Shown one piece after another: positions 3,850-55,690 of a stretch of DNA of 64,000 bases (positions within the stretch are counted from its first letter, which is position 1; every line of letters begins with the position of its first letter). The DNA lies in assembly GCA_038049695.1 (NCBI GenBank), contig CP142452.1:81014501-81078500 (forward strand), written 5' to 3'. The stretch is from Cinnamomum chago (lineage: Eukaryota > Streptophyta > Magnoliopsida > Laurales > Lauraceae). Under the pieces are notes generated by a model, which was not told the DNA's origin, did not search any database, and saw nothing but the letters and a program-made list of their open reading frames with translations. A program made the translations under genes and the position numbers.

Positions 3850-4083
3850 AACAACAGTATACTGAGTCGGAATCGGAACCATTCCCAGGTCCTGCATCGC
3901 TCGAGTCGGAACGAACCCATTTACATCCCTTTGCCGCATACTTTGATCCGCACATTTAATTGCGGGAAGGGAAACAAGGAACATAAAAAAAAAGTCTTCA
4001 ACTTCGAAACGAGCGAGTAGAGGTGCCGTTTGTTTTCAACGTTTCGTTCTTTACCCTAGCAGCACAGCAGTCCTCTCTCAAAG
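3850..4083 (+). promoter_or_regulatory. Presumed PUMY promoter-proximal region and 5' leader
   Basis: A GC-richer stretch after AT-rich DNA leads to the start codon. No TATA box is evident. The last 60 bases are pyrimidine-rich, as in many plant 5' leaders. The transcription start cannot be placed. Confidence 0.3.
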
Positions 4084-4110
4084 ATGTCATCTTCAGCTGT
4101 TTCAAGCTCG
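4084..4110 (+). CDS. PUMY: PUMY exon 1
   Basis: It encodes MSSSAVSSS and ends at a gttagt donor in phase 0. The ATG lies in the context caaagATGt and is the only start that joins in frame to exon 2. The upstream leader (about 3960-4083) has no obvious TATA box. A further small N-terminal exon in the 7.3-kb intron cannot be excluded. Confidence 0.7.
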
Positions 4111-7100
4111 GTTAGTTCCTAACTTCCAACGTTTGGATCTTTTCAGTTTTCCCCTCTTTTACAATGTAATTCACACACACACTCTCTCTCATTTCTGGTT
4201 GGGCTTCCAAAAACCTCGGGACCGTTTGTGCGCGAAAAGTTGGGAGGAGAACTTTCTTTGGAGAAACCTTTTTCTTTCCTTCTGTAGTGAAAAGTAGTTT
4301 TCCTCTCTCTCAAACGGGTGGAGAAAACATTCCTGTGAACTAGTTAAGTGAGAATTTCATAACAAAAATTGTAAACTCGTTAGATGAGACTTTCTAATAA
4401 CGAGAAATAATCAATTTTGACCAGAGAAAAGGCTGGTCTCTACCCACCTTGTCTTGAAACGATCGCTCCTTTTTGCCGAAGATAGTAAGAGTCTCCTTTT
4501 AGGGCAGAAAAAAAGGGGCTAAACAGGATAAAAGGGGTTTCTTTGGAGAATAATTTTTCTTCTCCCAGTTTTCTTTACATCTGATCTGAACAGGCCCACA
4601 GTGAAATGAAAATTTTAAAATTTGACATTTGGCCATTTAATAATTAGTTTCTTTGTTTTGGAGAAGTTTTCAAAATGGTTTCTTCTCCATGCTTTCTTCA
4701 ATTAAATCCATTCAGAGTGGAGAATTACTGCAAGAGAAAAAGTAGGGAGTCTCAACCAAGGAGATTCTCCACTTATAAATATCCTCCTTTTGTTCCTCTT
4801 GCCAGTGAGCCTTTACTTTTGGTGACCCTCTTAAGATATTGTATGATTTGTATCTCTAGTTAGTTGCTCTGTCATTTGTTTTGTTTTGTTGCTTTGTTGC
4901 GGCCTGTACGAGCAGTGGTGGACCCGGGATTTTTATCTGAGTGGGGCGGACGATAGTTAATTGAAGAAGTCAAAATCAATGTCAACTATCAATAATGAAT
5001 GCCAACTACCAATAATCTCTACTTGTTGCATGATTTAAAGACATGATTTTTTTTTTTTTTTTTTTTACAAATTAAGTATAAAGAACTCACATTCTACTAC
5101 CAACACTCAATTCCTACATAAGCTTTTTCTCAAGAAATTGTTTTTTTATTCAACTCAATGGGATGGAAATCAGATCAGCAACCGCACTACAACAACAATA
5201 AAGAAACTCTAGAAAACTCAAAAGAAGTAATAATCACTATCATATGAAAATAATAGACAGGGTGGAGAATCAGATATTCACTACATGTCTGAAAGCCGAT
5301 TCCAAAAGTAGGAGTCGGTTCAAGAAGAAAAGTACAAATCAAGAATTCAATTCATCAAATCCATTTGCAAGAAGGCATTTTTTCCATACCTATTTGATTC
5401 AAATGTAGAAATCTCATCATCACTCTCTTGTTTGTAAATAGAGAGAAAGGGAGAGTGGTGGTGTTGTTAAATCGAGGTGACGAGGAAGAAAGAGGAGAGA
5501 ATCAAAAAAGAAAAAAGAGATCGAGAGGGAGGGCAAGCCTTTGTGCCGTGCAATTGTGTCAACTTCGGAGCTTGAAGGGGAATGAGGAAAAACGATTGAG
5601 AGGATGGTTATGAGGTTTACTGAAATAGGTGCAGAAAAGGAGGACGGTTTTTAGGTTTTCAAGAGAGGTGGACAACAACTTTACCAAAACGGAGCATGAG
5701 CCATCCAGCCCATGCAAACCTTTAGCCCTTTTTGGATCCGACCTGGGGCGACCAGCCCGGGTGCTGTCCGTGCGGATAACATGAGTCCATCCATGTGTGC
5801 GAGTCTCTTATACCTCTATTTTATTTTCCATTTTGGCGTTTTGGGGTTGTGCTATGTACTTTTGTATGTGTTTTCTCTTTTTATAAAAATTCCCAGTTAT
5901 CGATAAAAAAAGAGAGAGACTCAGTTGCTCTGTATTGGTGTTGGCTATTAATGTTGATGATTAGTGGTTGTTCCTGCTTTTAACTTGACACCTATTGCTT
6001 ACTTGTGCATTTATATGTACTAAATGGTACCTCTAGTCAATTACTCTGTATTGTTTATTAGTTCATATTTATATATTTTTAGGGTTCGTTTGGTTGGGAA
6101 AAAGTGATAGGTGGGAATCCTCGCTAAGTGGATAAAAAAGGAGAATCCAATTTTTTTTGTGGGATGATGTTGTTGAAAAGTTTAAGAAAACTTGTGTAGT
6201 TGGAAACAAAATTATTTATCTCTTGTGGGTAGGAAACTTCAATTAAAGCAACCTTGTCTAATTTGCGAGTTTACTTTATGTCATTATTTAAGATGCCCGT
6301 GGTGGCCCCGAAGAGGTTGCATGGTAAAGACATGGTGAAAAAAGAATATGCATCTTATGAAGTAGTGTTTTAAAACTCTCTTGAGTTGTCTACTTAGTCA
6401 TTGACTAGTTGGTTCATAAAGGACTTGGGCAAGTTAACTAATAAAACTTTAATTTTCAGTTTGGGGAGGTGGAGGGGGATAGGTGGGACTGGTTTGAAAA
6501 CCCTATTTTTGGTTTAGGGTTTGTGTGATGGAGGTGAGGTTTTGGTGGAAGTGGTGGGGTTGCAGTGGAGGTGAGGTCATGAGGGAGATGGAGGTGGATG
6601 TGGTGGTGTCAGGGAGAAGAGGGGAAGTGAGGCGGAGCTCGATGGGGTGGAGGGAGGTTGGGTTTGGGTTTTGGGTTGGGAGTTGATTTTTGTAATGGAG
6701 AAGTACGGATGTGGTGAGGTCGTGAGGGGGGTGGAGGTGGATGTATTGGTGGTCGGGGAGGAGGAGATGGTGCTGATGGTGGAGGAGGAAGTGAGATTAG
6801 GAGGAGAGAGGGGAAGGGGAGAAGCACGGCAGAGTCCGTTGAGGGCGACTTGTTCAAGTCGATTTGACTTGAGGGGGATCGAGTTGCCCTCAAGTCTGAT
6901 TTTAAAACGTTGTTATGAAAGTTGAGTGAAGTAATGAAGCATAAGGGACAGGGGGAGTTTGGGTGTCGAGAATTTTTCTCATAAACATTGGCACTGGAGC
7001 AAAGTGGTGACGGAGATTTGGGGAAGAGAGAAACTCCTTGGCACAAAATAACTCACTAAGCATGGTATGGATGAGGGGGTTGGGTCCTTAGGAATAGAAG

Positions 7101-10100: not shown

Positions 10101-13100
10101 ATTTATGTTTTACTACAAGGCAGCAAGGTCTACTTTTAAAATGCCCACTTCTTGTGGGCCCACCTTTATGCATGACAATCAAGAGAGGCATAATAGTAGA
10201 TGGGTTTCGACATAGATTTTTGGTACGAAAAACTTTTAGGTTGATCAAATGATCCTAGCTCTTAGTTTAATCCCTCGAAGTTTAAGGGCTATGCATCTTG
10301 CAAACTCATTGTGGTAATATCCATTGGGGACCAATCCCTATATTAATTTCAAATTAGGACCAATGCTAATTCAGTGGCATAAATACATCTGAAGAAGTAC
10401 AACTTATTTGAGGATTTGGCTCAAGATAGTTCGGAATGGAGAAACATAATTCATGTAGCCGACCCCAACATAGTTGGGACAATGCATTGATGATGATGAT
10501 GACGCTATTTTAGTGGCATAGGTGTGTGGGAAGGAATTGGAGATGAAAACAGAAAAACAGCCAGAAAGAGTGTGTTCTGGAAAAACTTTATGCATAAGGA
10601 TATTAGATATGTATTTATGCAACAAAAAAAAAAAAACCTTTATTTTTGGTCTAGGTTCGAAGGTTTGAATTAGAAGGACCCAGACCTGGACTAGAATATT
10701 TCTGGGTTCAATGCAGCGTCCTCAAAACCTGACCTAACCTAAGAATTAACTGACCAAAATTGTTACTCATGCCCTAGTTTTGTAGTCAGGTCTTGGTAAA
10801 TGGGTAAGCCCTATCATTATCTCCCCCCCCCCTCCCACTTTTTTTTTGGTATAACCCTATCATTATCCTTGTGAAGCTGTAATTGTTATTGCTACACATG
10901 CTGCTGCTACTTAATTCTTTAGCAGTTTCTTTCATTGAACATTTTGATCTTCTGTCCATAAGAGGAATTATATGTTGCTTGGTTCAAGAATATGTAGGGT
11001 TTTGCTTTGGAATTGTCAATTTGTAACAATGGGGCCCATTATCTGGTGGCTCAACCTATTGGTATGATGTTTCATACATTGGTTGGCTTGCCATTCCATC
11101 TGTGCAAATTTTTTGAATGTGGGCACTGTTTCATTTTTTTCCTCTACCATTTGTTTACTGACCACTCCAAATGAAATTTGGTGTATGTGTTTTCCTTTGT
11201 GTTCCCTACTTATACAAAATGGAAACCAGGGCAAATTGAATATGTTCCTAGACTGAGCATTTTTTATATTTCTCTTTTTACAATTATGTGCGTTATATTT
11301 GTAAGAAAAGAGTGTATTTATCCCTTTAAAACCTGTTCAGTATTTTACCCTATTTGAAGGTTTACTTTTCACTTCCATCCTTGTAGGGTGGGGAAGTCAA
11401 CAGTGGAAGAGGGCATTTGAAGATTGCCCCTGAGGTTTCTGATGCTCTTCTACGTGGGAGAGCTGTTGTTGCTTTAGAGTCTACAATAATCTCTCATGGT
11501 ATGCTGGTTAGAATTTGTTGATTGAGAGAATTTATGTCTGAATCCTTTTGCAAATTACCTTTTTAGTTTTTATGAACCGTCAGTCAGTATGCCTGCATTA
11601 AGAAAATCTCATGAGTAGTCTAACCACATTCATTTCTATGAAAGTTTGCTGGTTCCCTAGCATCCAGGCATTCACTATGTATGCATTATGCAAGTAGAGT
11701 TTTCACATATGGCAGGCATTCTGAGAAATTTATCTGTCAAATTTCAGTTTGAATTTTGCATATATCTTAGCTGAGGTTTGATGAATGCTGGGATTTGGTT
11801 GAAGAGACAGCTTTTGAACGAGTGAATTCGTGTTTGGTTCTTTTTTCTTTCCAAAATTTAAGCACCATGAAAATGGAAGGATGAGGTATCATGATATTTA
11901 CTAAGGCAAATGGTTGAGTAAAATATTCAAGAGACATGTATCTTAGACCTAAAAATGCCTTTTTTTTTTTTTCCAGTTTCATTACTAAGGAAATGAGGTG
12001 TCAACATAAATTTGGGGCTGGCTAAAATTCCCACGCAACGATGTCATGAAACACAATTGTTCTTCTGAAACAACTGAAAACAAAGAAACTTCAGATCAGG
12101 ATTGTGTCAAATGCAAACAAACTTTTATTTCCCTTTCCGATCACCTTCCCAATGCTCTATTCCTGTATAACACAACCATCATGAGAAATAATACAAGACA
12201 GTCTTATCAACAAGCTGATCAGTAGAAAGATCCGTGGACAACTCTAGGTACCAAAACAACATTTTTAGGGCATTGAGGAACAGCAAAGTTCAATTGCCAG
12301 AATTGGTAACTGTGAAGAGATCGCAGTCTTTCACAGCAATTTTTGATTGAATGGTGGACACCATAGCTTGATATGCTTGGTGATCAGTACGTCTGAATCT
12401 TCTGAATGGTTGAATGGCGGAGAGAGAGAGAGAGGATCTTGATAAGAGAGGAAGCTAATCCTCAAAGAATGATATCATATGAGCCTTCTTCCACAGGCCA
12501 ATCAAGAGGTTCTTTGAAGAATTTTATCAGATGATCTTTTCACAATCACGAGAAAAGAGACTCTTCGTTGAAGCCTCTGCCATAAGATTTCATCTATGAT
12601 TTCTTAATGTAAAGGAGATGGCTTACTTGGTGATGGGGCTCTAATACCATGACAATTACACAGGTATTTGAGTTTAATTGCTTCCCTTCACTATTCAGCC
12701 CCTTAAGATTTATATTGAATACAAATAGTGAAGAAAGGAAAGAGAAATGCATACAACTCTGACACCTAGCCTAATCAGCCAATTTGGAGGCTTAATCAAT
12801 GCTAATTACAACTTAGAAAAATTATCCGTCTCCTTTTTAGTGTGGCACATCTCTACACTATATGATACAATTTTCTACACCATATGCTAGTCCATCATGG
12901 TGTGGTGGTCCGTAGGATTACCAGAATTTGTATTTCAAGGTAGGGTTTTGGTTTTTTTTTTTTTTTTTTTGTAATTGTTGAAATAGGAAATAATATAAGT
13001 AGAAGTGTTATTGCTGGTCATAATTAGGGTTGGGATCAGTCCTCATGGTTCTCCAAATTATTTTCTCCTTCTTTACAGCCCTAATATTCTTACCGATCAA

Positions 13101-16100
13101 AAGAAAAAAAAAGAAAAGAAAAGAAAATAGGAAGAAGAAGAAGAAGAAAGAAACCTAGTGTTCTTGTTGATTAAAAAGTTTCAATTTATGGGGTTGAGTA
13201 CGCTGAAATTAAGTTCTCTCTTGGGTTATGAAATTAGGGAAAATTTCTTAGGGGGTCTTTTTGCAAGAATTTAATATAAAGTTAATAAGCAAAGAGAATG
13301 AGGATTGCAGGAATTCAATGAAATTGATGAGAATAGAAGGAACCTAATTCTAGATGATGAATTGGATGAAAAACAGATGACCAGTTGAAGGGATTTTGGT
13401 GATTTAATGATGTAAATGGACAAGATGAATGATCTATGATGCGGCTTAAACAAACTGAAGGGAAAATACGAGTCTATTCTGCATCAAGAGAATGAATGGA
13501 TATCGTCGATAATAGAATAGATCAACTTATGTGTTGACCTAGAGCACAGTCTGCCATTGGCTTTGGCTCAAACTAAAACAACAAATTGGATGAGTGGATC
13601 AGTCCGATCAAGGCACCTCCAAGTGTAGTTTAGCACACTAGATCTAGGGTTTCTCCCCAGATCAAAGCATGTCAAGTTAAAGGACAAATTTTACTAATGG
13701 AAAATGTAAATACACATCGAGGCCAATGGGCCTCGTGGCCATTCAACTTAGAAAAAGCATCCTTACTCATGTCTGATATGGTTTCCTATTTTTCATCAAC
13801 ATAAGATAAAAGAAAGTCTTTCCTGATTCCTCAGTCTAAAAACAGTATAGAAATAAAAATGGGAAAAAGGATCACGGCAGGAAAGCAGGAGGTTTATAAT
13901 GGTCCTTTCATGCTATTGCTATTCAAGTAGTGCCCCAATTTTAAGTCAAGTGAAAATCTTGAGTGGGATCGTTTTGGGTTTTTCAATACCATTGCCTTTA
14001 TTTATATTTTGGGTGTATGACTAGGGGCCTTGAGCCTCTTGTGTACGCCTGCGGCCACGGTGGGCTTGGTCTTGGTGCATGGGCCTTGGGCCAATGATGG
14101 GCTGTTGACTTGTAACAATCAATCCAAGATCCAACCCCCTTGCCACACCTACCTTGTATGAATTGAATGTCCTGAACTTGATCTCAATTGGAGGAACACT
14201 ACCTTGGTTTGTGGTCCAAATGCTTAATACCATTGGATAAGGTGAAATATATTTGCGTGATAAATTGATTCTTACATCACCTAACCAGGTTGATCTTTAA
14301 GTCATCTCTAATTCACTGTATGACCTTGCTATCTACCCTCTTATGAATAGCTTTTGATCTTTGAGAGCTATCATTTTCTGATGAAGCTGATCTTTAGAGG
14401 CATCGAATGCCACCCAAATAGGGGACTGCTCAAGTCTGATGCAAGAAGCAGGCCCAAGGCCCATATATCCAACAGAGCATGCCCATTCACGTTGATATTA
14501 AAGAAGGGAGCCTGACATCGCTTAGAGTTAAAATTATTCACACACTCAAGCGGAGTTAGTCACATGATGTCACATTTCTAATTTGTTATCTTGTAGTTTT
14601 TATTTTTTTATTTTTATTGTGTCATGATAGGAGCCTTAAAAGAGTAAAAAATGTCTTTCATATAGATAATAGATTTAATGAGTCCAACAATGTTTGAATG
14701 ACGTGAATGTAGGTGCAATTGACGGGTTATTTAGTTACTCGTCCAAGTAGCCCAAGATTGTGCGATCTGTCTGACTTCTAGAAGTTATGATTCATTTATT
14801 GACTAGGCATTTCTACTTACAATCTTGAGTCCTGCTTGAAGTTACATAGGTGAAAGAATTAGGGAAAGTGGTCTGCATAAACATGTATCACTTATCGGTT
14901 ATCAATGAATGAATCTCTTTTTTGCTTCCTCTCTTTATGAGTTGAAGAGATCTATCTCCACTGTGTGAATACTCCTTGGGAATGGCATCAAAGGTTGGGT
15001 CCTTCAGAAGATCATGCCTCGGTTGCGTTCTTCTCAACCTCCACCAGCATTCCAAATCTACCATAAGACATTCCAATCGCTAACCCCACATGAATACTGA
15101 AGGCTCTTATGATAAACTGGTAATCATTATCATTTGATAAAGCTGAATTTTATTGCATCCTTAATATGCAATCATCATCATCATCAACAGGGGCGGATCT
15201 AGGACTTCTAATCTGGGGGGGCTGCACTTAAGTTACACTAAAAAAATAGCAACAATGTCTCACCAAAAACTATAAAAAATAGCAACAATGTCCCACAAAA
15301 AACTATCTATGTACTATCTTCATAATTCATTTTCGACAAGCATCATACCAAAAGAGTGATCATTTTTATTATACTACTCAAAATCAACAAAAAAATGTCT
15401 TCACAATAGATCTTGACAAGTATGACAAAAGACAAACAAAAGTTAAAACATGATACTAGTGAAATCTTGACTTGCGTGGCTTCTTATCAAATTCATCTAT
15501 TACCAACTCTATGTTGACTTCATTAGCAAATTCTCTTTCGATGTAAATAACCATGCAATCCGCGAGAAACTCGTCATCCATCTTGTTACGGAGTCATGTT
15601 TTGACAAGTTTCATAGCTGAGAAGGCTCGTTCGGCAGTCGCCGTGGAAACAAGAAGAGTCAAGACAAGACGAATCAATCTATCAATCAAATGATAAATAG
15701 TTGACTTTTCTGTTTCAATTAAAGCTCGACATAACTCAGAAATGGTAGACAATTTCTGAAAACGGGGATGACGATGCACATCAAGCTTATAATGTTGCAA
15801 TTGACTTCTCAAAATATGTATCTCTTGCTCCGTGAAGTCTTCACAATAAAACTTCTCAGCGAGCTTGCAAATATCATCAATATGAAAGTACTTAAAAGCA
15901 TCTTTCGGGTCCAAAGCCGAACTAAGAGAAAGAAGCTCAATTGCCTCCTCAGAGAATCTACTCTTCAACTCCAGCAATTGGAAATCTATTACAGCATTGA
16001 AAATATCAACGCGATAATGATGCTCAACCGTAATACAGTCATTCTGTTGGCAAGAACGGCGTGTACCAATCATATGACGAGAACTCATATCAGGAATATC

Positions 16101-19100
16101 AATGTCATGTTTTATACAAAAAGAAATCACATCCTCAAGGAAGCTACCCCAACATGTTTCTCTCAACTCTTGAAGAAGTTCATTTGTACTTGAGACTAAA
16201 CCCATGGCATTTAGAATGTCTTGTGACTTTACTTGCAAAGCTTTACATAGTATATTTGTGATTCCCATAGTCTTATGCAATAAATGAAACATGAAGACAA
16301 ATTCAAAATTTCTCATAGCAACATAAGAACCCTTAGCTTCTCCACGCATAGTGTTACTAGACCTATTCTTCATGATGCTTTCAAGAACCGTGCAAGTCGC
16401 ATCATACATCTCTATCAAGCTACAAACAGATTCATAGTGAGAGCTCCATCGAGTATCTCCAGCTCGTTGCAATGTGCGAACTTGATTAGCACCCCGTCCA
16501 CTATCAAGCACACCACTTGCCAACAAATTATTGATTTCTATTTTTCGAGCTTTCTCCAACTCTTTCTTCCGCTTAGGCGTAACCTGGAGATTAACAATGG
16601 ATGCCAACTTTGAAAAGAATAACCAAACGTCTGGCACATCTTTAGAAGCCGCAACTAATGCAATTTGTAGTCGATGCGCAAAACAATGCACATAATATGC
16701 ATAAGGACACTCATTAAGAAATAGTGCTTGTAATCCATTCCATTGACCATGCATATTACTAGCACCATCATAACCCTGGCCTCTCATATTTCCAATAAGC
16801 AAATTCTTGTGAGCAAGAACATTGGAAATCTCTTCTTTCAAGGTTAACGCAGAAGTGTCTTCAACACCAACAATAGCAAAAAACCTTTCTCTAACAATAC
16901 CACCACGATCAACAAATCGTAGAATAATGGCCATTTGTTCTCTATGTGAATTATCTTGTGCTTCATCCACAAGGATACAAAACTTTGCATCACCAACATC
17001 TTCGCGTATTTTCTTTCTCACATTTTCGGCAAATATATGCAAAAGTGTTTTCTGAATACCATGTGAGGTATACTTGGCATTTCTTGGACAATCACCTACT
17101 ATTTCGGTAACTTTCTTGTTCAACATTTTCGAAAACTCGAACATTGCAATGAAGTTTCCACAATTCTTTGATTTCTTCGATTCATCATGTCCTCTAAAAG
17201 GAAACCCTTGTAGTGCAAGCATCCGAATACATTGAATAACATTTCGGAGAAGCAACCGATTATTTGCAATTGCTTCTTTAGAAAGTGTATTGAAAACACT
17301 ATCTATATGTCGAGAAGGATTCATTAGATTCTCACAATACATTGTCGCCGACCTATGTGGAGAACAAAGACCACCTTCATGTTTCAAAAAAAGGACACTT
17401 CTTCCCATTGTTAACCTTCTTCCAATTCTGAAACCCATCAATGGTAAATACCGGATGCTTCGGAGGATTTGTTTCAAAGAGAAAGCAATAAAAACAATAT
17501 GCTCTATCCTTGTGGAGTGAATATTCTAGCCAAGGGAATAGTTTGTACCAATTAGTGTTGAACCGTCGACCTTGCTTTCCAAATATGGTCACCGGATAAT
17601 CTTTTTCTTTCTCATGAGTAGGTCGACAAGGTCCCATTCTAAGATAAGCTACCCGAAGTTCATCATGTTTGTTAAGCGGGTATTCATATATAGCAATGCG
17701 TTTACCCGGATCACATTCAAATGAAGAAGTGACATCAACTTCCATAGGTGCAACTTCTTGAGCTTTGGAAGAATGTTCAACTACGATTCTTTGGACTCGA
17801 GAAGAGGGTTCAACTCCTTCAATTTCAACAACTTGAACTTTGGTAGGACGTCGCTCATCCTCATCAAGTTTTGAAATATCAGGAATAGATGTGGAAGTTT
17901 TGCCGCTTTCAGATTTATCATCTTTTCTCTTATAGAATGATAGAAGAGTTATTGGTTTTTTGGGCGCTTGATGATGCGACATTATAACCTAAGATAGTAA
18001 ATAATCATCAATATACAATACGTAAGACCGGTTTTAATTTTTTTTTCCTTAAGAATCTCTTGTATTGTGAAAACCTAATGCCTTACAAATCAACCCATGA
18101 CGGACAAATAACACACCTGGGTAACAAATCAATCCCTCACAAATAACCCATAACAGGGACAAATAACATTCCAGATAAGGCAAAGTATCATGCAACCAAG
18201 TATAAAACAACAACAACAATGATGATGATGGTAATCAGATACTCAGATGGTTTGCATTACCTTCACCCCCTATTTCCATCCATTGAAGATGTCTCTGTTT
18301 TCCAAAATTTGAAAGTTAATCAAGATAAAGGGGTATACAAATGGATCGTTTAATTTTACACAAACCAAGGATGAGGTATACAAAAGACATGGTGGATTGA
18401 TGCTGAGAACTTGCGCTATATTACCAACAAAAGAAGTATCTACAAGTAGCTTTTAGGATCACAAAAATTCACAAAACAGAGACACTTCATCCAAATTGCC
18501 CAAAAGGGGACTACTACTATTACCCCAACAACAAAGGACAAGAAACTACATTCCAAGTTACCCACAAAGTACCAGCACAAAAGTACACAAATCACCCATG
18601 TGCCTAGTAGTATTTTAAGTGATCTGTACTTCCAAGCAACTCCCAAAGCCATAAAACCACCAACAGAGAATAATTTTCCAATGTGCCCACGCCAAATTAC
18701 AGCCATTGGCCAGCCCGGAGCCCTTAATTATCAATGGCCAATGTAGCCCCATGACCTCAGTTAGATGCTGCCATTGTGCAGTCACGAGCCACAATCATGG
18801 CCATTGCCATCTATAAAAGGGTGATCTGGTAGACCCCAAGTGAGAAAGAATCAATTGGCGATGATGAAGGGAAAGATGGCAATGGTGGTGATGTTGTTGG
18901 CTGCTGTTGTGATGGGGAGTGGGATTGTGGGGTCCAAGGCAGATGGCCTGTGCAGCATCCCCATCAAGGGTCTGATGTCCTGCAAGCCTTCCGTTAGTGG
19001 GCCAGAGGGTGTGGACTGTGGAGCCCACTGCTGCAGGGTCAATCATGAGGAGGAGAAAACCCACCAGAAAAAACCCAACAAAACCCATGTTTCAGTGATT

Positions 19101-22100
19101 CAGTCATCATCCAAAGAGTGAAAGAGAGAATGATAAGGAGGAGAAAACCCACAAGAAAGGGGGGGGGAAAAAACCATGTTTCAGTCATCTAACACATGAA
19201 AAAGGGAAAAAAGAAAGAAAAGAAAAACCCATCTTAAAAAACCAAACAAAAAGCATGTTTCAGTCATCAACCACGTGAAAAAGGGAAGAAGAATGGAAGA
19301 TTTGGGAGGCAATGAACCTGACTAGGAGACAAATTCCTCTGATCTTCCTCCAGTTCTTGGTGTTGTTGACCCTCTTCTGCAACCTCTTCTGTATCCAGTC
19401 TTCTGCAACCTCTTCTATATCCACTCTCAGAAACAACCTTTCCAGCAGACCAGCACCCTTGTTTGTTACAACAGGTAACAAAGGTGAAGACGGTGAAGCA
19501 CTGAAGCAGAAGAGGATGAGTCTATGAGAGGTAACAAAGAAAACGGACAGAGAATAAAAAAAAAGGGTTTTGACTTTTTTGAGGGTTGAGTTGTGGGCCT
19601 TGTGGCTTGTGAGCCTGGGCCCAAAATACAAAATCTAATTTTTTTTTTGGGTTGAAAGCTTGGGTGGGCTGCAGCCACCCCAGGCCCCCCCCTTGATCCG
19701 CCCTGTCTCAACTATGTTGGGGTCGGCTACATGGATTTTGCGATAAGATTTTTTATTCAACCCCCTCACATGAATTTTGCGATAAGATTTTTTATTCAAC
19801 CCCCTCACATGAAAAGTTAGTATGGTTTCTTATTGGGTCCAAACCAACACCCCCCCCCGCTATATATATATATATGTATATATATATATTTGTGTGTGTG
19901 TATCTCCAAGTTGTGTGTATAGAAAATTTATTGCCTATTGCATTTGCGGGCTCACATGCACACTTCTTGTGGGATCCACTTCTCTTGAAGGTTTGCTACT
20001 TGGTTAAATTCTTCCACCTTGATTAGGCATGGATTCAAAGAAAATTTATTAAATTTTTTGTGCCTTCAAAACTGTGGCTATCATCATACAACTTGGTGAT
20101 TTTGGGCTATCCCAATTCCCAGTCGATGATGGGAACTTCCTATCCCACTTGCTGTAAATGGTGTGGTCAGTATTGGTGGGGCTCTCATGAGGCTTGCAAG
20201 GAACCTTAGCTGCAAATGATTAGTCGGTGTTTCTCTCTCTCTCACACAAAGAAAGATTATACTTAACATGATTCATTTTTTTTTTTTTTTTTTTTTCTGA
20301 TCTCTACTTTTCATTTAGGCATGCCCTATCCACAAAATCTGGAGACTGCAAGGCAGGTTGAGCATGTCATAAAAGAGAATGGGGCGGTTGCAGCAACAGT
20401 AGCTATTTTGGATGGTGTTCCATGCATAGGTATTATCTTGCAAATGTATTATACGTTGTTTAGAGTTTTCTATCTTTTATTTAAAAAGGGGTCATTTTTA
20501 GTTAGTATGACCTCAAAATGTAAGGATATCTACTGGCAGGTCCATGAGAAGAAAAAGAAAATAATTTGTAAATTTTGTATAGACGCGGCCTGGAAAGCCC
20601 ACCCTGATCAGTTCAATTTTGAGTCCCAGTGGCCCGTTTGGACAGCCTTTTCAAAATGATGTTTATTAATTATTTTTGTGCTTAAATGCTTTCTGAATTA
20701 CCTCTTTGTGGTGTTACGCATGTGTAATGTGCTGAATTAGCAGCTTTGAGATTGATTGTGCATATACATGTGCTCATGGTTGGTGCATGGCATAGGTTGG
20801 GTCTTGGGAGAGTTTCATTTTATTTTCTTGTATGGCATAACATACATGTCATTTTATGTTGTATGTGGTTCATTTTTGGAAATGAAGAGTTTGAATGCTT
20901 CCTAGTTTCCTTAACTTGCATGAAAGTTGGTAGAAATTTGCAAAGACTGAATACCATAGCCTTTTTATGTCCTCAAAATTGAGTTTGTCCCTGGAGCAAC
21001 ATTTATTCTATTGTTTCTGATTCATAATAGGTCATGGCAACATGCTTGCATACATTGTGTGGACTATGGATCACAGTAATCTAGACACGGGTCAATTTTC
21101 TTTTTGCCCATAATACCTAGCTACCGAAAGTTATATGGTTTGTGATCCAATTGTCTACAAGTCATGATCTGGATTGTATTTGATGATCTGCTTTTGTTAA
21201 ATCGGAAGTTAGTTTAACTCATGATCCATATTATGTACATGAGCTAACTCTATAAATATGTTAGCCATGAGGCCCATGACTCGTTACTTTGGTAAGATAA
21301 TGAAGTGATGTTTTCGCTGCCGCCGCCGCCGTCATTGTCATTATCATTATTGTTAGTATTGTTATTCTACTGCTATTTTCATTTGGACTCAGTTTACTCA
21401 TCAAACTTAAAATTAGGAGAAGTAGGCTCAACTTTCGGAATTGATCAATAATAGAAAACCCTAAAAAAATAGATGAAATGTAGCAAAAATAATGTAATTT
21501 TATATAGGAAAGAACAATTCACCTTATGTGATCAAAGCAACTATTCATTCTAATTTTGCACTCAATCTGCCTGGAGATTCTGGGTGAGTAGCTTTTGCAG
21601 TTCTACTTCTCTAAACTTTGGAATTGTGATGCTTTCCTGCCTTCTTGGTGAGGGTCAAGTGCTTATTTTTAGAATCTCAGGATTCAATTCTTGTCCAATT
21701 AAAACTCTTGTATTAATTAAAGAAAGCTAATATAAATCCCCGATCAAATAATGTTCTTTCTTTTCTTTCATAGTCTTTTCTCAAACTTTCAATCAATATT
21801 AGGGTTCTCATGGTATAATCTAGCTTCTGAAATTTTTTGTGCTTGAACTCCACCATTATGAGTCAATCTTAATGGTCCTGGGTGTTACCTGATTCACTTG
21901 TTGGTTCATTCACATTAACCCCAGGTTTTTGTTATGCACACTATGACCTTGCATATAGTTCGTGCAAACTATTAACCCACATTGGATTTCATGCAAACTA
22001 TTAGCCCACATTGGATTTCATGCAAACAATCCATTAGGTCATGCAAACTATCATCCCCATGCTTGGTTCCATGCATGCAATCTCATGTATGGTAACTTGA

Positions 22101-34100: not shown

Positions 34101-37100
34101 AGACACATTCCCAATTAGTAAAACTCAAATTTATATTATTTCCCACCTCTAACCATCAATGGATGCACTTGTGGATGGACCAAGATTGTTCTACTTCTGA
34201 CATTCCTCTTGGATTGACTATAATACATAGATTGCATGAAAAGGTCTATTATAAATAACTATTAAATTCAAAGCATTATTCTATAGTTCGTTGAGCATAG
34301 TCTTAAAAACAGGTGTTGGCTGAGCAATAAATACGATCTATTTAATTGGGTTGTGCATTATATGCAATTCATCAGATGTTGCATCTTCTGCTGAATGGTT
34401 TGGATGAGTAAAACTGATTTTATTTTTGGTGAATTGTAAGTTGTAACATAATCTTCACACATGATTTTCATGCAACTTGTCGGGCATAAGTGCATGCATA
34501 CATATGTATACATATATATTGGAGTATTCATGGAATGACGTGGCTTGAAATTCCTCACCAACTAGACCCTCGTGATCTAGTAATCTCCCTAATCTAACCC
34601 CTATTTGAAAAACCTGTGGATTGATCATTTAATTTGGCATCCATCGTTATTAAACATCTAGGATTCGGATGACTTTCAGGCCCTGAAAAACCAACCTCCC
34701 ATGATAAGAAGGTTCCCTTTGTTAATAAGCAGTAACGCCAAAAACTCAAGCTTGTAGTGAACAGCACAACAATGTATTCCCCCCTCCCCCTTCCTCCTTG
34801 TAGTGAATGGCACAACAATGTATATCAACACCCTTTTCTTGCACAAAGGTTGGCCATGGAGGGACCTTTCAAGCCCTTTGCTCCCCCATGATTGTTGTGG
34901 TTCCATGTGGACTGCACTTTGTAGAAGATAACAGGCCCAGCCCATGTACAAAGCCCACACGTGGGATACATACTCAAATCTGTATAGGATAGGATTTATT
35001 CCCTGATTTCTCTCCTTCTATGTATAGGATAGGATTTATTCTTTCCATTCTTTGTTATTCTAATTTGTACTCTTTACATAATTAGAGCCTTGATTAAGGC
35101 ATAAGATCAATATAAATAGAATCGTCGTTGCTCTATTGATGCACGACCTTCTCCCAAGTCCCACCATTATTATTCTTCTTCTTCTTCCTTTCCTTCACAT
35201 AGTATTACATGGTATCAGAGCTCTGTGGGATCTATTCATCTCAACTGTCTCTCAGTTGCAATCCCATCTCAAGGTTCTAGAAAGAGAACTCTTTCTCATG
35301 GCAGTTTCACTGTGTCGACAGTCTGCAGAGAGCAAATCAAGGTGGGCCATCATCCGATCATCCATATATCACAAACGATCACCTCCACAAGGGTTACACA
35401 CTTGCCTGGACGTTCCTGAATATTATTATATGCAAACACATACTCTATATAGGTGCTTGTTTAAGCTTAGAAGTGGTTTGGCAGGTGGGAAGCACCTGGC
35501 TACATTCCAGTCGTGGGGAGTGAAATGGATGGAGAGGTCTTAATGTGGAGTGAGTCCCTTTTAGAATTTCTTGTTATATGATGTACATTATCATTTAATG
35601 CAGGAAACTCAAGGTGTCACGGTTGCTGCTTATAAGACCCACAAGTTCCCCGCATTTTTCACCGAATCAAGCGGCTGCAAGGTGGGTACTTTTGCATTCC
35701 ATCAAAATGTATGCCATTTTCCTATAATTATTGTAATTGTTGTAATCAATATCTTCCATAACATGCAGTATTTCTGAATTCTTTTTGAATTATCTCATTA
35801 GATGGATAATCGAGCCATATTGCTTTCAATTATCAATTTTTTTGTTCAAAAAATATCAATCTGCCACCTGCCTCGGTGTTGTTGGTTCATTGTCTCAAGG
35901 CGTGGGTTTGCTCCCCATGTCATGTGTTCGACACCCCTCAAATTTACCTGGTGCATGTGTTGCGGGGTCGTATGTGCATACGTACAACAAGGATACCCTT
36001 GTTAGCAAAATAAATAAATAAATAAATAAAATCTGCATTTATGAAATTAGTCCCTTTTTTTTAAATGGTAAAACTTATTGCTCCAGGAAAAGAAAACAAA
36101 AACTAAGTCAAAAGCATCTTAGACAAACACGAGACAACAAACACAAAATAGCACCAACTAAAAAATAATCCAATTAAACATCAAAAGAAATAGAAGAACG
36201 AAGAACTCCCTCCTTTGCTAGACCATCCACCATAACATTTGCCTCTCTTAGAACTTGATGAAAAGAAGTTTTCATCTGATTAGAAATGTCATGCACCTTC
36301 TCCACCCAATCTGCCAATCTCCAAGGATAAGATGCCTTCCCTAAACCCCATTGAATTGCCAGAAAAGAATCACCTTCAATGATAGCATTGTTTCCTCCCA
36401 ACTTTGTGAGCAAATAAACAATGAATCATCAAATGATAAATTGTTTCCTCATCTTTTGAACACATCGGACACCCATTCACGATAATATGCTTTCTTTTTC
36501 TCAAATTGTCTATGGTAAGAATTTTAGGCCACCACACTTCAACAAAAAGCCAACACTCTTGGAGGAATAGATGGTCCCAAAAATCCTGCCAACCTCCCAC
36601 TGTATTACGTGAATTTGTCAAGATATTTACAAAAGAATTTACTAAGATAAAGGCTTCCATATCCTAGCATCAGTACTGCTAGATAACATAAACTTTATCA
36701 ATTGCCATGCAAATCGGTAAAGTCTGAAGTCTCTCTCAGTCAGATTCCTGTGGAAACATTAATCTCAAGCTATCATACCGCTTATTAATGGAAAATTTTC
36801 AGCACCAAAATCATTCTGTCTTCTGTCCAACAAATAAAGATTAGGGAAAAGATGGTAAAACACAATCTGCCCACACCATTCATCATGCCAAAAATGAACC
36901 CTATGACCATCGTGAACTTTGTATCGAATCCATTGATAAAAGTCATCCTTAACAGATAAAATCAGTCTTTTGATTTCCAAATTCAACTTGAAAAATATGA
37001 AATATATCATTGATTTTGTGGAAAGCCGGCTGCTCCTAATTGGAATTTATGTTCTGAACTTACAACAGTTTTTCTAAGTAAAAATAGAAATTCTGAAAAA

Positions 37101-41125: not shown

Positions 41126-44100
41126 ATACATATAACTTTGAAATCACTCTATTCAGTTTATTAGTTACAATATAAGAAAAAAGATTACTCCATAATCCAC
41201 ATGCAAAAGTTGAATTTTACTCATTATATATATGTATATATATATATATATATAGAAAAGATTCAAATAACCAGATATAACATGGTATCTAGTACCCATT
41301 TTTATTGGTATCTAGTTCCAAGTTACACTTTCTGGCTAGGATTTGCATTTCTAGAATCCTGCATTGTCTAAAATTTCCTTTCATTAAGCTAAGGGTGAGT
41401 TTGGGTGCTGATACATTCAAGATAGCAAAACTTTAGTTGAAATGGAGTAAAATCTTGTAAAGGTGATTTAGGCCCATAAGGGCAATCATTCCCAAATTGA
41501 GATTCTAATCTCTCTTCTCGTTGAAAAATAATGGAGAACCCGCTTCTACTTCCTTTTTTTTCTTTAATAGGTAAATTTGTTTTAAGCAAAAGAGAAAACA
41601 AGGACTTAGAAAGTCACTAGAGTTACAGAGAGCCCAAAAGTCAAGCTATACATTGAGATTGACCCCATGGCCAAATAGAAAAGAAATGACAAGAGCAAAT
41701 CCAGGCACAAAAAATCCATTGGGGAGAATGTGTTTGTGGGCTTTCCACTCCCAAAACAATGAGAATTGCCCTGTAACTGGAACTTTTGCACATACCCAAA
41801 TTAAATAAACCCAATTCCCGATTCCACACCCCAATCCCCACCCCCACAAATAAAAATGAAAACAAGAAAAAGGAAAAAAAAAAAACACCCATGTAGAGTA
41901 ATGACGGTACAAAAAAAAAAAAAAAAAACAAAAATCAAATTAAAGTAGCGAAAGAGAGGACTCGAGAGAGATGCAGTGGTGGAGTGCAGCAGAGAGACAC
42001 TTGCGTTGAAAAAAAAAGGACCATGAGAGAGAGATTAGGTTTGATTTCATGTGAGAGATAGAGGTCTGGTCTCTCGATAGGCGGAAGCTACCAGTACAGT
42101 CTGATGGTTTCGATTTCCCATCCCCATTGGGCACCGTCTGATCGTTTTCTGACCGTTGATTAGGTGGGATCAGATGGCAGAGGAGAAGTCGATCTGGTGC
42201 ACCAGCAGAAGAGGCGTCAGATCCATACACGACAGAGCATGAGACGAGGAAAAGGGAGGAGGAGAAGAGTGTCTGCTGCAGTGGCGAGATCAGAGAGAAG
42301 GGAAGTGAGCGACCGAGAGAGACATGAGGAAGAGGGAACGATTTGGGTTTTTTTCATTCAAATGATTTGGATTTTTTCTTTTTCCTGTTTCCCTCTCTTT
42401 ACCTTTATAGGCTTGATGAGAAATGTTGGATGGATGCATTGATTATACGGTGAAGATGAGTCCTTACTATAGAGAGTGAGGACGCTCCTCATAGGATCAA
42501 TTCCCATATATATATATATATATACATACATATGAATGAATGAAAACAAAACCCTATGATCCAAGACTCCTACTGAAATTAGGACATTAATCCTAATGAT
42601 AACTTATTAAATAAATAAATAAAGAAACAAAATCCTAGATGCAAAATGAATCCTTTCTCTTTGGATGCCTAGTCGCTAGACACCCTTCTTTGGGTCCTAT
42701 ATGTGTGCCACAAGGGTTATGGTGTCTTGTTAATAGAGACTTATAGAACAAACACATACATGTTCTGATGTCTTGGCACATAATTATGTCGGGGGATCAA
42801 TGCTGACACATAATCCCACGTGCATGCTGCACAAAATCACAACTATGATGATACACATTTTCTTAGAAATGGCTTGAACTAACTGCATTGCTTGTTGAAC
42901 CATTGGAATATAGGTGCATTGTCGTCTGAATACTCCAGAGGAATGTGCGAGGCTTATAGGTAAGTGGAATGGTAGTTCAGTTTCTTAGTGAGGAAAATGT
43001 TGAAACACTGGAGAGTATGAGAATGAGTATGCTTGCACACAACTGATGCAGATGTGTTGCTATATCTTATAGCCCAAAACTCAGATTGATTGGATGGTTC
43101 TATCCTCTTATCATTGGATAACTACATCAAGTATGTACCAATGACTGATTCTTGTTCTTAACGCCAGTTCCCTTCAACTGTATCAGATGATCATTACTTT
43201 TGCATCACTTTTGGTGAGGCCCCAATTCTCAATGAGCTCATGAGTTGGATGTTTTGGATTCAGGCTCATACAACGGTTGTGATCATGTGTATGGAATGTC
43301 ATACTTCCCATGTGTATCGAATACTTGCATTTTTATTTTCCTTTGACATCTGTTTCTGTTCTTTTGCAGATGCAAACATGAAACTTGGACTCGGAACCGG
43401 AATTTTGATTGGGGTGCCTATTCCTGCAGAACATGCAGCTTCTGGAGCTTTGATAGAATCTGCCATACAAAGAGCTCTAAAAGAAGCTAGGTTTGAATGG
43501 TTTACACCTTATTTCCCTTTTATTTTGGTTCCCTTTTTATATCTCTGTCATACTGATACTTTGTTAGGGATTCGAGATGCAGTGATAATAATGTTACAGG
43601 AAATTCTGCAACTCCCTTCTTGCTTGCAAGAGTAAATGAACTTACTGGTGGAGCCTCCCTAGCAGCAAGTATCCTTTTATCTTTAAATTTGCTTTATCAT
43701 TAAAAAAGAGAGAGAGAAAGAGGCATCCTAAAATCAGCCTCATTAGATCATCCTAGCTCTTGATTTAATAGGTCTTAAAGTTTAATGGTCTGTTAACCAT
43801 AGATTTTTTTTGGGATTCAATCGAATGGTTAGTGAAGGCTTGATGAGCATATAACTGGGCATGGTTTCAGAATTCAGATCATGGGGGGATAAGAGCGGGA
43901 AAAGAGCTGCAGTTATCAAAGGTGAGCCCAAGTGGGCCCCATAGAGCTGGACTGTACATGCGGTCTACTCGTAGGAGAAAATTCTCCATCCAATCAAGGT
44001 CATCAAATAAAATTAAGAAAGTTTCTATTTGATCATCTATTTAGTGATCTTTCATTAGATTGCTGGCAAAATCTTAGTGGACCTAATTTTTTGTAGATGG

Positions 44101-54198: not shown

Positions 54199-54830
54199 TC
54201 AATGAAAAACTGGACAGCTTTCAATCACTATCCCTTTAGCGGTAGGGCAAGTTGCAAGAGGACAGTGATCACCCAATTTCAGTCCCCACCAATCCACTCC
54301 ATATATATTATTTCCTTGAAAAGCAAAGGATTGTAGAAGTATAAAAAATGCAGGTCCTACATTTAGCGCTGCTGATAGGACATAGTTATATTTTGCCCAC
54401 CATTCCTTGTGCTTTCTGAAGACATAAATGTTGAAGAAAATGCCTAGTCCAGCCCATGCCCAGACGTAGACCGGGGTAGCTGGAGGCATAAGCGAAGGGG
54501 TAGAAAGCAAGATTGGGATATTGATTCCCTGTATCCACTTTTTATGAGGAAAGACTCGGGATAGCTTCCATGCCGCCACTGTTGCTATGATGCCCACGGC
54601 AAAAAAGATAAAAAGTCCACCAATATAGGCCATGTGGGAAAAATAGGAGCGAAGGTCCCACCACTTCTGATTCCTGATTGTACAGTGGCATCAAATACCA
54701 CATGTTCATTGGGACACGTCCAAGGGCTCCCTTTGGGCAACTTGTCCGGTTCACAAATGTTCTTTATCGTAGATAATAGCCACCATCCTACCCCAACATG
54801 AATAAAGGATGTGATAACTTGCGCAACAAC
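54199..54830 (-). pseudogene. OPT terminal exon
   Basis: The last 144 codons (54199-54633) are an undisturbed ORF ending ESCPVFH. The upstream 200 bases use another frame; the switch lies between DATV and KWWDL. The acceptor is at 54831-54832. Confidence 0.85.
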
Positions 54831-55269
54831 CTGTGTATCACATAAGAAGATATCAAATATTTCTGTTAACTGTGTATATGATCATCACTGAATCACTCAC
54901 AGATGGTTGTAAATATGTGTTAGCAACTGTACCTTCCCTCAATCGACGTACTTATTTCAGATACATGAGATAAAAAAAAAAAAAGAGTCCACAGGTTTAT
55001 CTCCATTTGTAATCATAAGTCTTATCATGGGAAATGGGAGAAGTGGTGCTGATTGGGTTGATCTTGGCAACTTAGGATCAACTAGTTCTCCAAGGATAAC
55101 CGACTCTACTGTACCTGTGGCCCACTCAAATTCATCAATATCAGGTCAAACCTCACGTCAAGCTAATATATATTTCTATGCAGCGAACTCATACGATGCA
55201 AGCCAGAGCCTTGGATGGGATTTTTAAACCCGAACAACACATGGCCAGTCGGTATCCTCTGACTCATGT

Positions 55270-55690
55270 GTCGTAAAGTCACCCTTGCCCCAATGGAACC
55301 TACCAATTAAACCTTGCCGAAATATTCTTTGGTGTAAATGGGTACTTAAATTTAAATTAAAACAGAAGTCCAACAAAGAATGGTTAGTGGCGAAGGGCTT
55401 TCATCAACAACCTGGGCTTGACTATGGTGATACATTTAGTCTTGTGATTAAATGCAGCACTGCTCGACTGTTCCTATTGCTTGCAATACATTTTCGTTGG
55501 CCAGTTTGCCAACTTTCCGTGCACAATACATTCTTACATGGTGTTTAAACGTAAGAAGTGTACATGGAGCAACCTTATGGCTTTGTGGACTCTTGGGTCC
55601 TTTTATAATAATTTCACCTCGTCACACCCACCATCTACCATGAAATCAAACTGTTACTTGATCGACTATTACACATAAGCACATTTGTAC
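55270..55690 (+). mobile_element. Copia reverse transcriptase fragment in the OPT intron
   Basis: RNILWCKWVLKFKLKQKSN, WLVAKGFHQQPGLDYGDTF and TFLHGV are followed, after a frameshift, by YMEQPYGFVDS. These are the N-terminal motifs of Copia reverse transcriptase. It is opposite in strand to the OPT exons; no LTRs were identified. Confidence 0.82.

Follow-up and report, generated by a model that had tools for sequence, protein, structure and literature searches.

A multicopy, transposase-bearing hAT family that carries the promoter and 5' half of a DIR1-like lipid-transfer gene

Capture of gene fragments by hAT transposons has been described in several forms. The maize elements Ds2-22 and Ds-l4-354 belong to the hAT superfamily, are flanked by 8-bp target duplications and carry host fragments whose sources lie on another chromosome; the authors termed such capture rare in hATs (PMC3260210). 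Pack-TYPE elements, among them the Pack-hATs, likewise hold captured coding DNA between hAT termini and have carried it to new places (PMC8903248), and the frog element Pack-hAT-N8_XT is a multicopy hAT with a captured 5' untranslated region (UTR), present in three places with distinct target duplications (PMC8277862). Here, we describe a related case from Cinnamomum chago, in a window of 64,000 nucleotides (the whole stretch analyzed, to which all positions refer) on contig C2 of a genome of 1.06 Gb in 14 contigs. The window contains a hAT element carrying the promoter and 5' half of a gene for a DIR1-like lipid-transfer protein. We propose, with a probability of roughly 0.9, that a hAT captured this part of the gene and that the altered element was then amplified.

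This family differs from each of the systems named above. The maize Ds elements are nonautonomous and carry exon-intron pieces, whereas the element described here bears a transposase, carries a promoter and 5' coding sequence, and occurs in nine copies. The frog element comes from an animal, and its captured piece is 291 bp from a 5' UTR. Pack-TYPE elements are nonautonomous by definition; our family has a captured host coding fragment, as they do, but it also has transposase matches (Pfam in the window copy and DNA matches in eight sister copies). In the Pack-TYPE survey pipeline, a BLAST match to transposase causes an element to be classed as autonomous, so that transposase-bearing carriers would be set aside by the method (PMC8903248). 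In one open-access library, we found no paper on captured gene fragments in autonomous hATs, although such a case may have been published elsewhere. While hATs are known to capture genes, what appears to be new is that a captured promoter and a densely packed set of footprint-like marks occur together in a multicopy family whose members bear a transposase. This family, which has an identified parent gene and can be ordered against capture-free kin, carries the promoter and start codon of a host gene at nine sites, and footprint-like scars are dense in the same region where the host DNA was taken up. Comparisons of species or accessions could thus test how genes are acquired by cut-and-paste elements.

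The element and its own parts are as follows.

15188 to 19705, minus strand (that of the transposase): hAT element, 4518 bp, with imperfect terminal inverted repeats; sister copies end alike, with 8-bp target duplications.
15594 to 17477, minus strand: main transposase frame, with Pfam matches to DUF4371 (E 5.1e-50) and, below threshold, Dimer_Tnp_hAT (20.1 bits; cut-off 21.4).
17377 to 17982, minus strand: N-terminal transposase frame, 201 amino acids, in a different frame from the main one.
19041 to 19295, no strand assigned: degenerate leader repeat, the family's own, also found in the relative L024 and in type-C elements (see below).

The termini at 15188 and 19705 are imperfect inverted repeats (CAGGGGCGGATC... 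and CAGGGCGGATC...), and short terminal inverted repeats, a hallmark of hATs, were present in the window copy and in its sisters. We take DUF4371 to be associated with hAT transposases; the hAT C-terminal dimerisation domain may be represented in the main frame by the subthreshold Dimer_Tnp_hAT match. The N-terminal frame had no Pfam match at E ≤ 1, and a C..C pattern that raises the question of a TTF-type zinc finger, as in TTF/MYM-type hATs, was seen by eye only. A preliminary description, made from the window alone, had placed a hAT at these coordinates, which is borne out by the inverted termini, the minus-strand transposase, and the same termini in the sisters. It had also assigned a TATA box, a start codon, and a signal peptide on the opposite strand to a DIR1-type gene, followed by a degenerate repeat. 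The first three all lie within a 94% match to an intact gene, L017, and the repeat is the leader repeat listed above.

18435 to 19033, plus strand: host DNA taken up by capture, comprising an upstream region, a promoter, and the 5' half of a DIR1-like coding sequence, 94% identical to L017:4738-5326 and absent from L024 and the four type-C elements read.
18812 to 18818, plus strand: TATA box, TATAAAA, inherited from the parent gene and identical in it.
18861 to 19009, plus strand: captured coding part in the parent's frame, by comparison with the parent, with the start codon (ATG at 18861), signal peptide, and first two cysteines.
19010 to 19024, plus strand: TGTGGAC followed by TGTGGAGC, a frame-shifting 7-bp duplication found in the transposon copies (with a one-base variant in L016) and absent from the parent.
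19029 to 19034, plus strand: two adjacent Cys codons that are spurious, lying outside the reading frame of the parent, and of which the second crosses the capture junction at 19033/19034.

Window positions 18435 to 19033 align with L017:4738-5326 at 94% identity over 599 aligned positions, far beyond chance. The captured segment therein holds about 430 bp 5' of the start codon, TATAAAA included, together with half of the coding sequence from its 5' end. The parent, on contig C1, is an intact gene (L017:5161-5466) that has 101 codons and encodes eight cysteines. Its protein has the eight-cysteine LTP_2 domain that is the hallmark of DIR1-like lipid-transfer proteins (Pfam, E 2.3e-10) and matches DIR1 itself (PDB 2rkn_A, E 7.2e-11). 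While the parent is a full eight-cysteine member of this family, the coding capacity of the captured piece is limited to the signal peptide and the first two cysteines. Alone, the captured fragment had no match in Pfam (E ≤ 1) or PDB (E ≤ 10); its DIR1-like identity follows from its match to the parent gene. The signal-peptide-like start after the ATG at 18861 was judged by eye.

Comparison with the parent altered two details of the preliminary description. The captured piece had been taken to begin at 18700, and the match to L017 moves its start to about 18435. The reported first cysteines followed by a CC pair survive in part: the first two cysteines are in the parent's frame, whereas the CC codons are out of frame and run across the junction. 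Transposon copies depart from the parent sequence after CCCACTGCTG, and the extra TGTGGAC occupies 19010 to 19016. Because the reading frame is shifted by this duplication, and the junction falls within the second of the two Cys codons, the Cys-Cys pair at 19029 to 19034 is accidental. We rejected it as the pair of DIR1 on reading the parent (GPEGVEPTAECC), whose real CC codons were not captured.

The parent and the sister copies came from a genome search with window positions 18700 to 19121 as the DNA query, as the preliminary description had proposed. Among the 40 places scored out of 120 candidates, three groups could be told apart by the extent of the query that they matched. Group one comprises 10 places with most of the query, one of the 10 covering query positions 1 to 334 only (the parent and nine copies), group two 14 places that start at query position 304 to 311, and group three 16 places that start at 342. 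A protein search of the genome with the parent protein, in which all 21 candidates were scored, gave 18 matches at E ≤ 1. The sole close full-length match was the parent gene itself (100%); three were diverged paralogues (52, 39, and 30% identity), two were weak (E 0.16 and 0.82), and the other twelve fall in the nine transposon copies, covering at most residues 1 to 59. Apart from the parent, all nine places with the piece found by the DNA and protein searches, the window included, are hAT copies.

Eight further elements, L009 to L016, carry the piece on five contigs (C3, C4, C6, C7, and C9), so that the fragment and its identical junctions were read in nine elements on six contigs, window copy included. 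DNA matches to the transposase part were present in all eight sisters fetched. Both ends were in view in seven of the eight; their target duplications, judged by eye, are perfect 8-bp repeats in four cases and have one mismatch in three. One could suppose instead that two separate features had been read as one, either a DIR1-like gene that a hAT later entered and cut short or the nearby termini of two unrelated elements. This would suit the window copy, for which we could recognize no 8-bp target duplication, but it is refuted by the identical junctions around the fragment in nine elements, the target duplications of the seven sisters with both ends in view, and the intact gene elsewhere, and we regard it as extremely improbable. 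The preliminary description had named two outcomes that would speak against capture, namely, a genome with no DIR1-like parent and a separate gene later entered by the transposon. L017 supplies the parent; fragment-free relatives do exist, but the junctions are common to the carriers, and the fragment is hence not a separate gene entered later. Capture by the hAT, the central claim of that description, thus has an intact parent and nine carriers behind it.

Relatives from groups two and three bear on the order of events. Six of the 14 group-two places were fetched (L018 to L023) and are designated type B. Five of them, L019 to L023, contain the transposase and match the window copy as far as 18201 or 18519; other DNA follows, and the match is taken up again from 19003 (19010 in L023). 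These five retain a DIR1 stub of about 31 bp with the 7-bp duplication and hence descend from the capturing element. The sixth, L018, has the stub in a rearranged element. The filler of L019 to L023, about 1.1 kb before the stub at the window equivalent of 19003, stands in place of most of the DIR1 piece; in L019 it runs from 3920 to 4740 on the minus strand. Three carriers, L010, L014, and L015, have about 597 bp of other DNA (2353 bp in L010) within the captured upstream region, between the window equivalents of 18519 and 18558; in L014 the 597-bp insert occupies 4253 to 4849. The first 193 bp of this insert also occur in type-B copies L021 to L023. From group three, 5 of 16 places were fetched, of which L024 is long and L025 to L028 (type C) are about 650 bp each; the DIR1 piece is absent from all five.

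In a tree built from the transposase part of 15 copies and rooted at its midpoint, the capture-free L024 branches off first and L016 next, and the other 13 copies form a star (95/91), within which the five B copies fall together (88/88). Distances in the captured piece are 0.025 to 0.065 between parent and copies and 0.010 to 0.049 among copies. The tree and the distances are best fitted by one capture followed by a burst, and the lack of the piece in L024 and the type-C relatives is likewise best fitted by a single capture followed by amplification. This order is supported, though less firmly than the parent, the copies, their common junctions, and the target duplications of the sisters, all of which were observed directly.

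We suggest the following course of events. A plant hAT with a DUF4371-type transposase gene would have copied 599 bp from the 5' end of one DIR1-like gene, once, into the noncoding stretch that separates its transposase start from its right terminus. Thus altered, the element would then have moved as a unit, giving rise to the nine copies found, and a later branch would have swapped most of the captured piece for other DNA while keeping the stub of about 31 bp. For the copying step, we give even odds to a double-strand break in the 5' region that was mended by repair synthesis, during which the template switched to the DIR1 gene. Homology to the capture-free L024 runs to 18235 and resumes at 19041; the element's own leader thus lies on both sides of the piece, as would be expected if the template had switched during repair synthesis within the element. 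Earlier authors have suggested that genes are captured when excision breaks are repaired (PMC3260210), and in rice, foreign filler of 1 to 123 bp was found in 58 of 94 excisions (PMC4423477).

The captured piece could also have been enclosed in another way. In the Pack-TYPE model, two neighboring copies that flank a gene merge into one element. Closely spaced insertions of related elements, as this would involve, have been reported for Pack-TYPE elements (PMC8903248, PMC13317346). The piece described here, however, is internal, with the element's own leader on either side, and the 8.75-kb stretch around the parent gene contained no other match to the element of at least 50 bp at E ≤ 1e-6. We therefore consider such a merger unlikely, and repair synthesis within one element remains our preferred account of the copying step. 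The breaks may have come from insertions and excisions of other hATs whose footprints crowd the 5' region; nested hAT excisions, we infer, supplied them.

Three of these footprint-like duplications in the window copy are as follows.

19090 to 19105, no strand assigned: TTTCAGTG followed by ATTCAGTC, absent from L016 and L024.
19112 to 19127, no strand assigned: CAAAGAGT followed by GAAAGAGA, unique to the window copy in the alignment of 15.
19441 to 19456, no strand assigned: TCCAGCAG followed by ACCAGCAC, absent from L016 and L024.

An alignment of 15 copies (the window copy, L009 to L016, and L019 to L024; the rearranged L018 was left out) yielded 25 rows of imperfect 7- to 8-bp tandem duplications at 22 positions, from 18546 to 19500, all in the 5' region of the element. 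Positions 18546, 19443, and 19500 occur twice each; homopolymer rows were excluded, and two poly-C rows at 19686 were dropped. Among the duplications are GATGATGT followed by CATGATGA at the captured start codon and GGTCCAGC followed by CGTCCAGG in the signal peptide. Fifteen events are private to one copy, 13 of them not poly-G runs. The transposase part had no such duplication in these copies, its sole 7- to 8-bp indel being a stretch missing from L021. Eight more 7- to 8-bp indels were not scored as duplications; seven are in the 5' region, and some are variants of scored events. Relative to all element bases, the 5' concentration has p 2e-9 for the positions (22 of 22) and p 7e-6 for the private events that are not poly-G runs (13 of 13).

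The duplications look like hAT excision footprints, for which the exact pattern is that of Ac and Tam3. Excision of hATs is described as leaving insertions complementary to neighboring bases, through hairpin formation and end-joining (PMC3499496). In 22 of the 25 rows, the last base of the left copy, which follows the duplicated core, is complementary to the one expected (null 1/3, p 2e-8). Ten 8-bp events have a core of 6 bp, and in eight of these the changes to either side of the junction are both complementary (null 1/9, p 8e-7); the rows share descent and are not fully independent. Replication slippage or microhomology repair might have produced the 7- to 8-bp duplications instead, given that part of the region is repetitive and that our strict scan detected no nested hAT in place. 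Slippage should yield perfect copies, though, and the complementary changes at the junctions argue against it, so that we find this explanation improbable and continue to read the duplications as resembling excision footprints.

Several observations weigh against our account. The window copy, lacking a target duplication, has the flanks ATCATCAA and TCTCAACT; a small deletion of the right flank could perhaps explain this. In the 16 elements scanned, some of them only partly in view, no transposase frame stayed open over its whole usual length. Only one fork of the tree is well supported, most being weak, and the bootstrap values are not settled. The 599-bp capture is longer than the fillers of 1 to 123 bp reported for rice excisions (PMC4423477). 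The base before the duplicated core is complementary in just 13 of 25 rows, the 7-bp events seeming to have lost it, and the strict scan of 16 elements, which required a perfect 8-bp duplication and agreement at 8 of 11 terminal bases, detected no nested hAT still in place. Relative to the left noncoding bases alone, the 5' concentration is moderate (p 0.003 for the 22 positions and 0.03 for the 13 private events). This being the fairer comparison, we consider a footprint hot spot in the 5' region likely, with some doubt left.

Around the TATA box, two additional footprint-like changes were seen by eye and left unscored: an 8-bp change of L011 near the box and a 4-base inversion in the window copy, L009, L010, L014, and L015. 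Just 3' of the box (window 18820 to 18835), the window group, L011, L012, L013, and L016 differ from one another by indels or the 4-base inversion, as if this site had been hit repeatedly. We speculate, tentatively and with some reservation, that the family's 5' region is a landing pad for other hATs, where their repeated insertion and excision would leave footprints and breaks, and where faulty repair would keep importing host DNA, in this case a complete defense-gene promoter. If so, transposase-bearing hATs would be recurrent vehicles of promoter shuffling, made such by other hATs.

The fragment lies antisense to the transposase, so any transposase transcript initiated close to the right end would include antisense DIR1 sequence, either in the leader itself or in an intron of the leader. 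A simple scan with a consensus and home-made scores gave a candidate splice acceptor at 17988, just before the transposase start, so that an intron of the leader may contain the captured fragment; none of our conclusions depends on this. The signal peptide carries an 8-bp insertion in three of the nine copies, and 7- to 8-bp insertions further on make the frame differ among copies. With the frame not kept in all copies, a secreted peptide common to the family seems unlikely.

The window copy lies between exon-like stretches of a pseudouridine-5'-phosphate glycosidase-like (Indigoidine_A) gene. One, near 20315 to 20437, matches Indigoidine_A with E 4.4e-12, and another, near 43363 to 43491, scores 24.3 bits, below the cut-off of 25.2; a third stretch, near 11456 to 11500, presumably belongs to the same gene by its motif. 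The hAT looks like an insertion within an apparent intron of this gene, with the captured promoter directed toward the exon near 20315. It is conceivable that the captured promoter or an antisense RNA regulates the parent DIR1-like gene or that the promoter drives the glycosidase gene; the preliminary description had proposed that the parent gene could be under antisense or small-RNA control. The TATA box and upstream region have been kept, and the fragment runs antisense to the transposase and in the same direction as the exon near 20315. The copies, however, carry different indels immediately 3' of the TATA box as well as at the start codon, and the alignment, read without a formal selection test, indicates that the frame is not kept in all of them. 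From these sequence features, a regulatory role appears improbable.

Rfam (at gathering scores) and tRNA scans of the window found nothing. Two GGGTCGGCTACATG motifs occur at 10452 (minus strand) and 19720 (plus strand), the second adjoining the hAT; we presume these motifs and the right-flank sequence to be SINE-like. Farther along the window are an exon of an oligopeptide transporter (OPT) at 54202 to 54690 (minus strand, E 2.2e-17) and retroelement remnants, with RVT_2 at 55228 to 55545 (plus strand, E 6.4e-13) and a weak, subthreshold RVT_3 match at 36177 to 36425 (minus strand).

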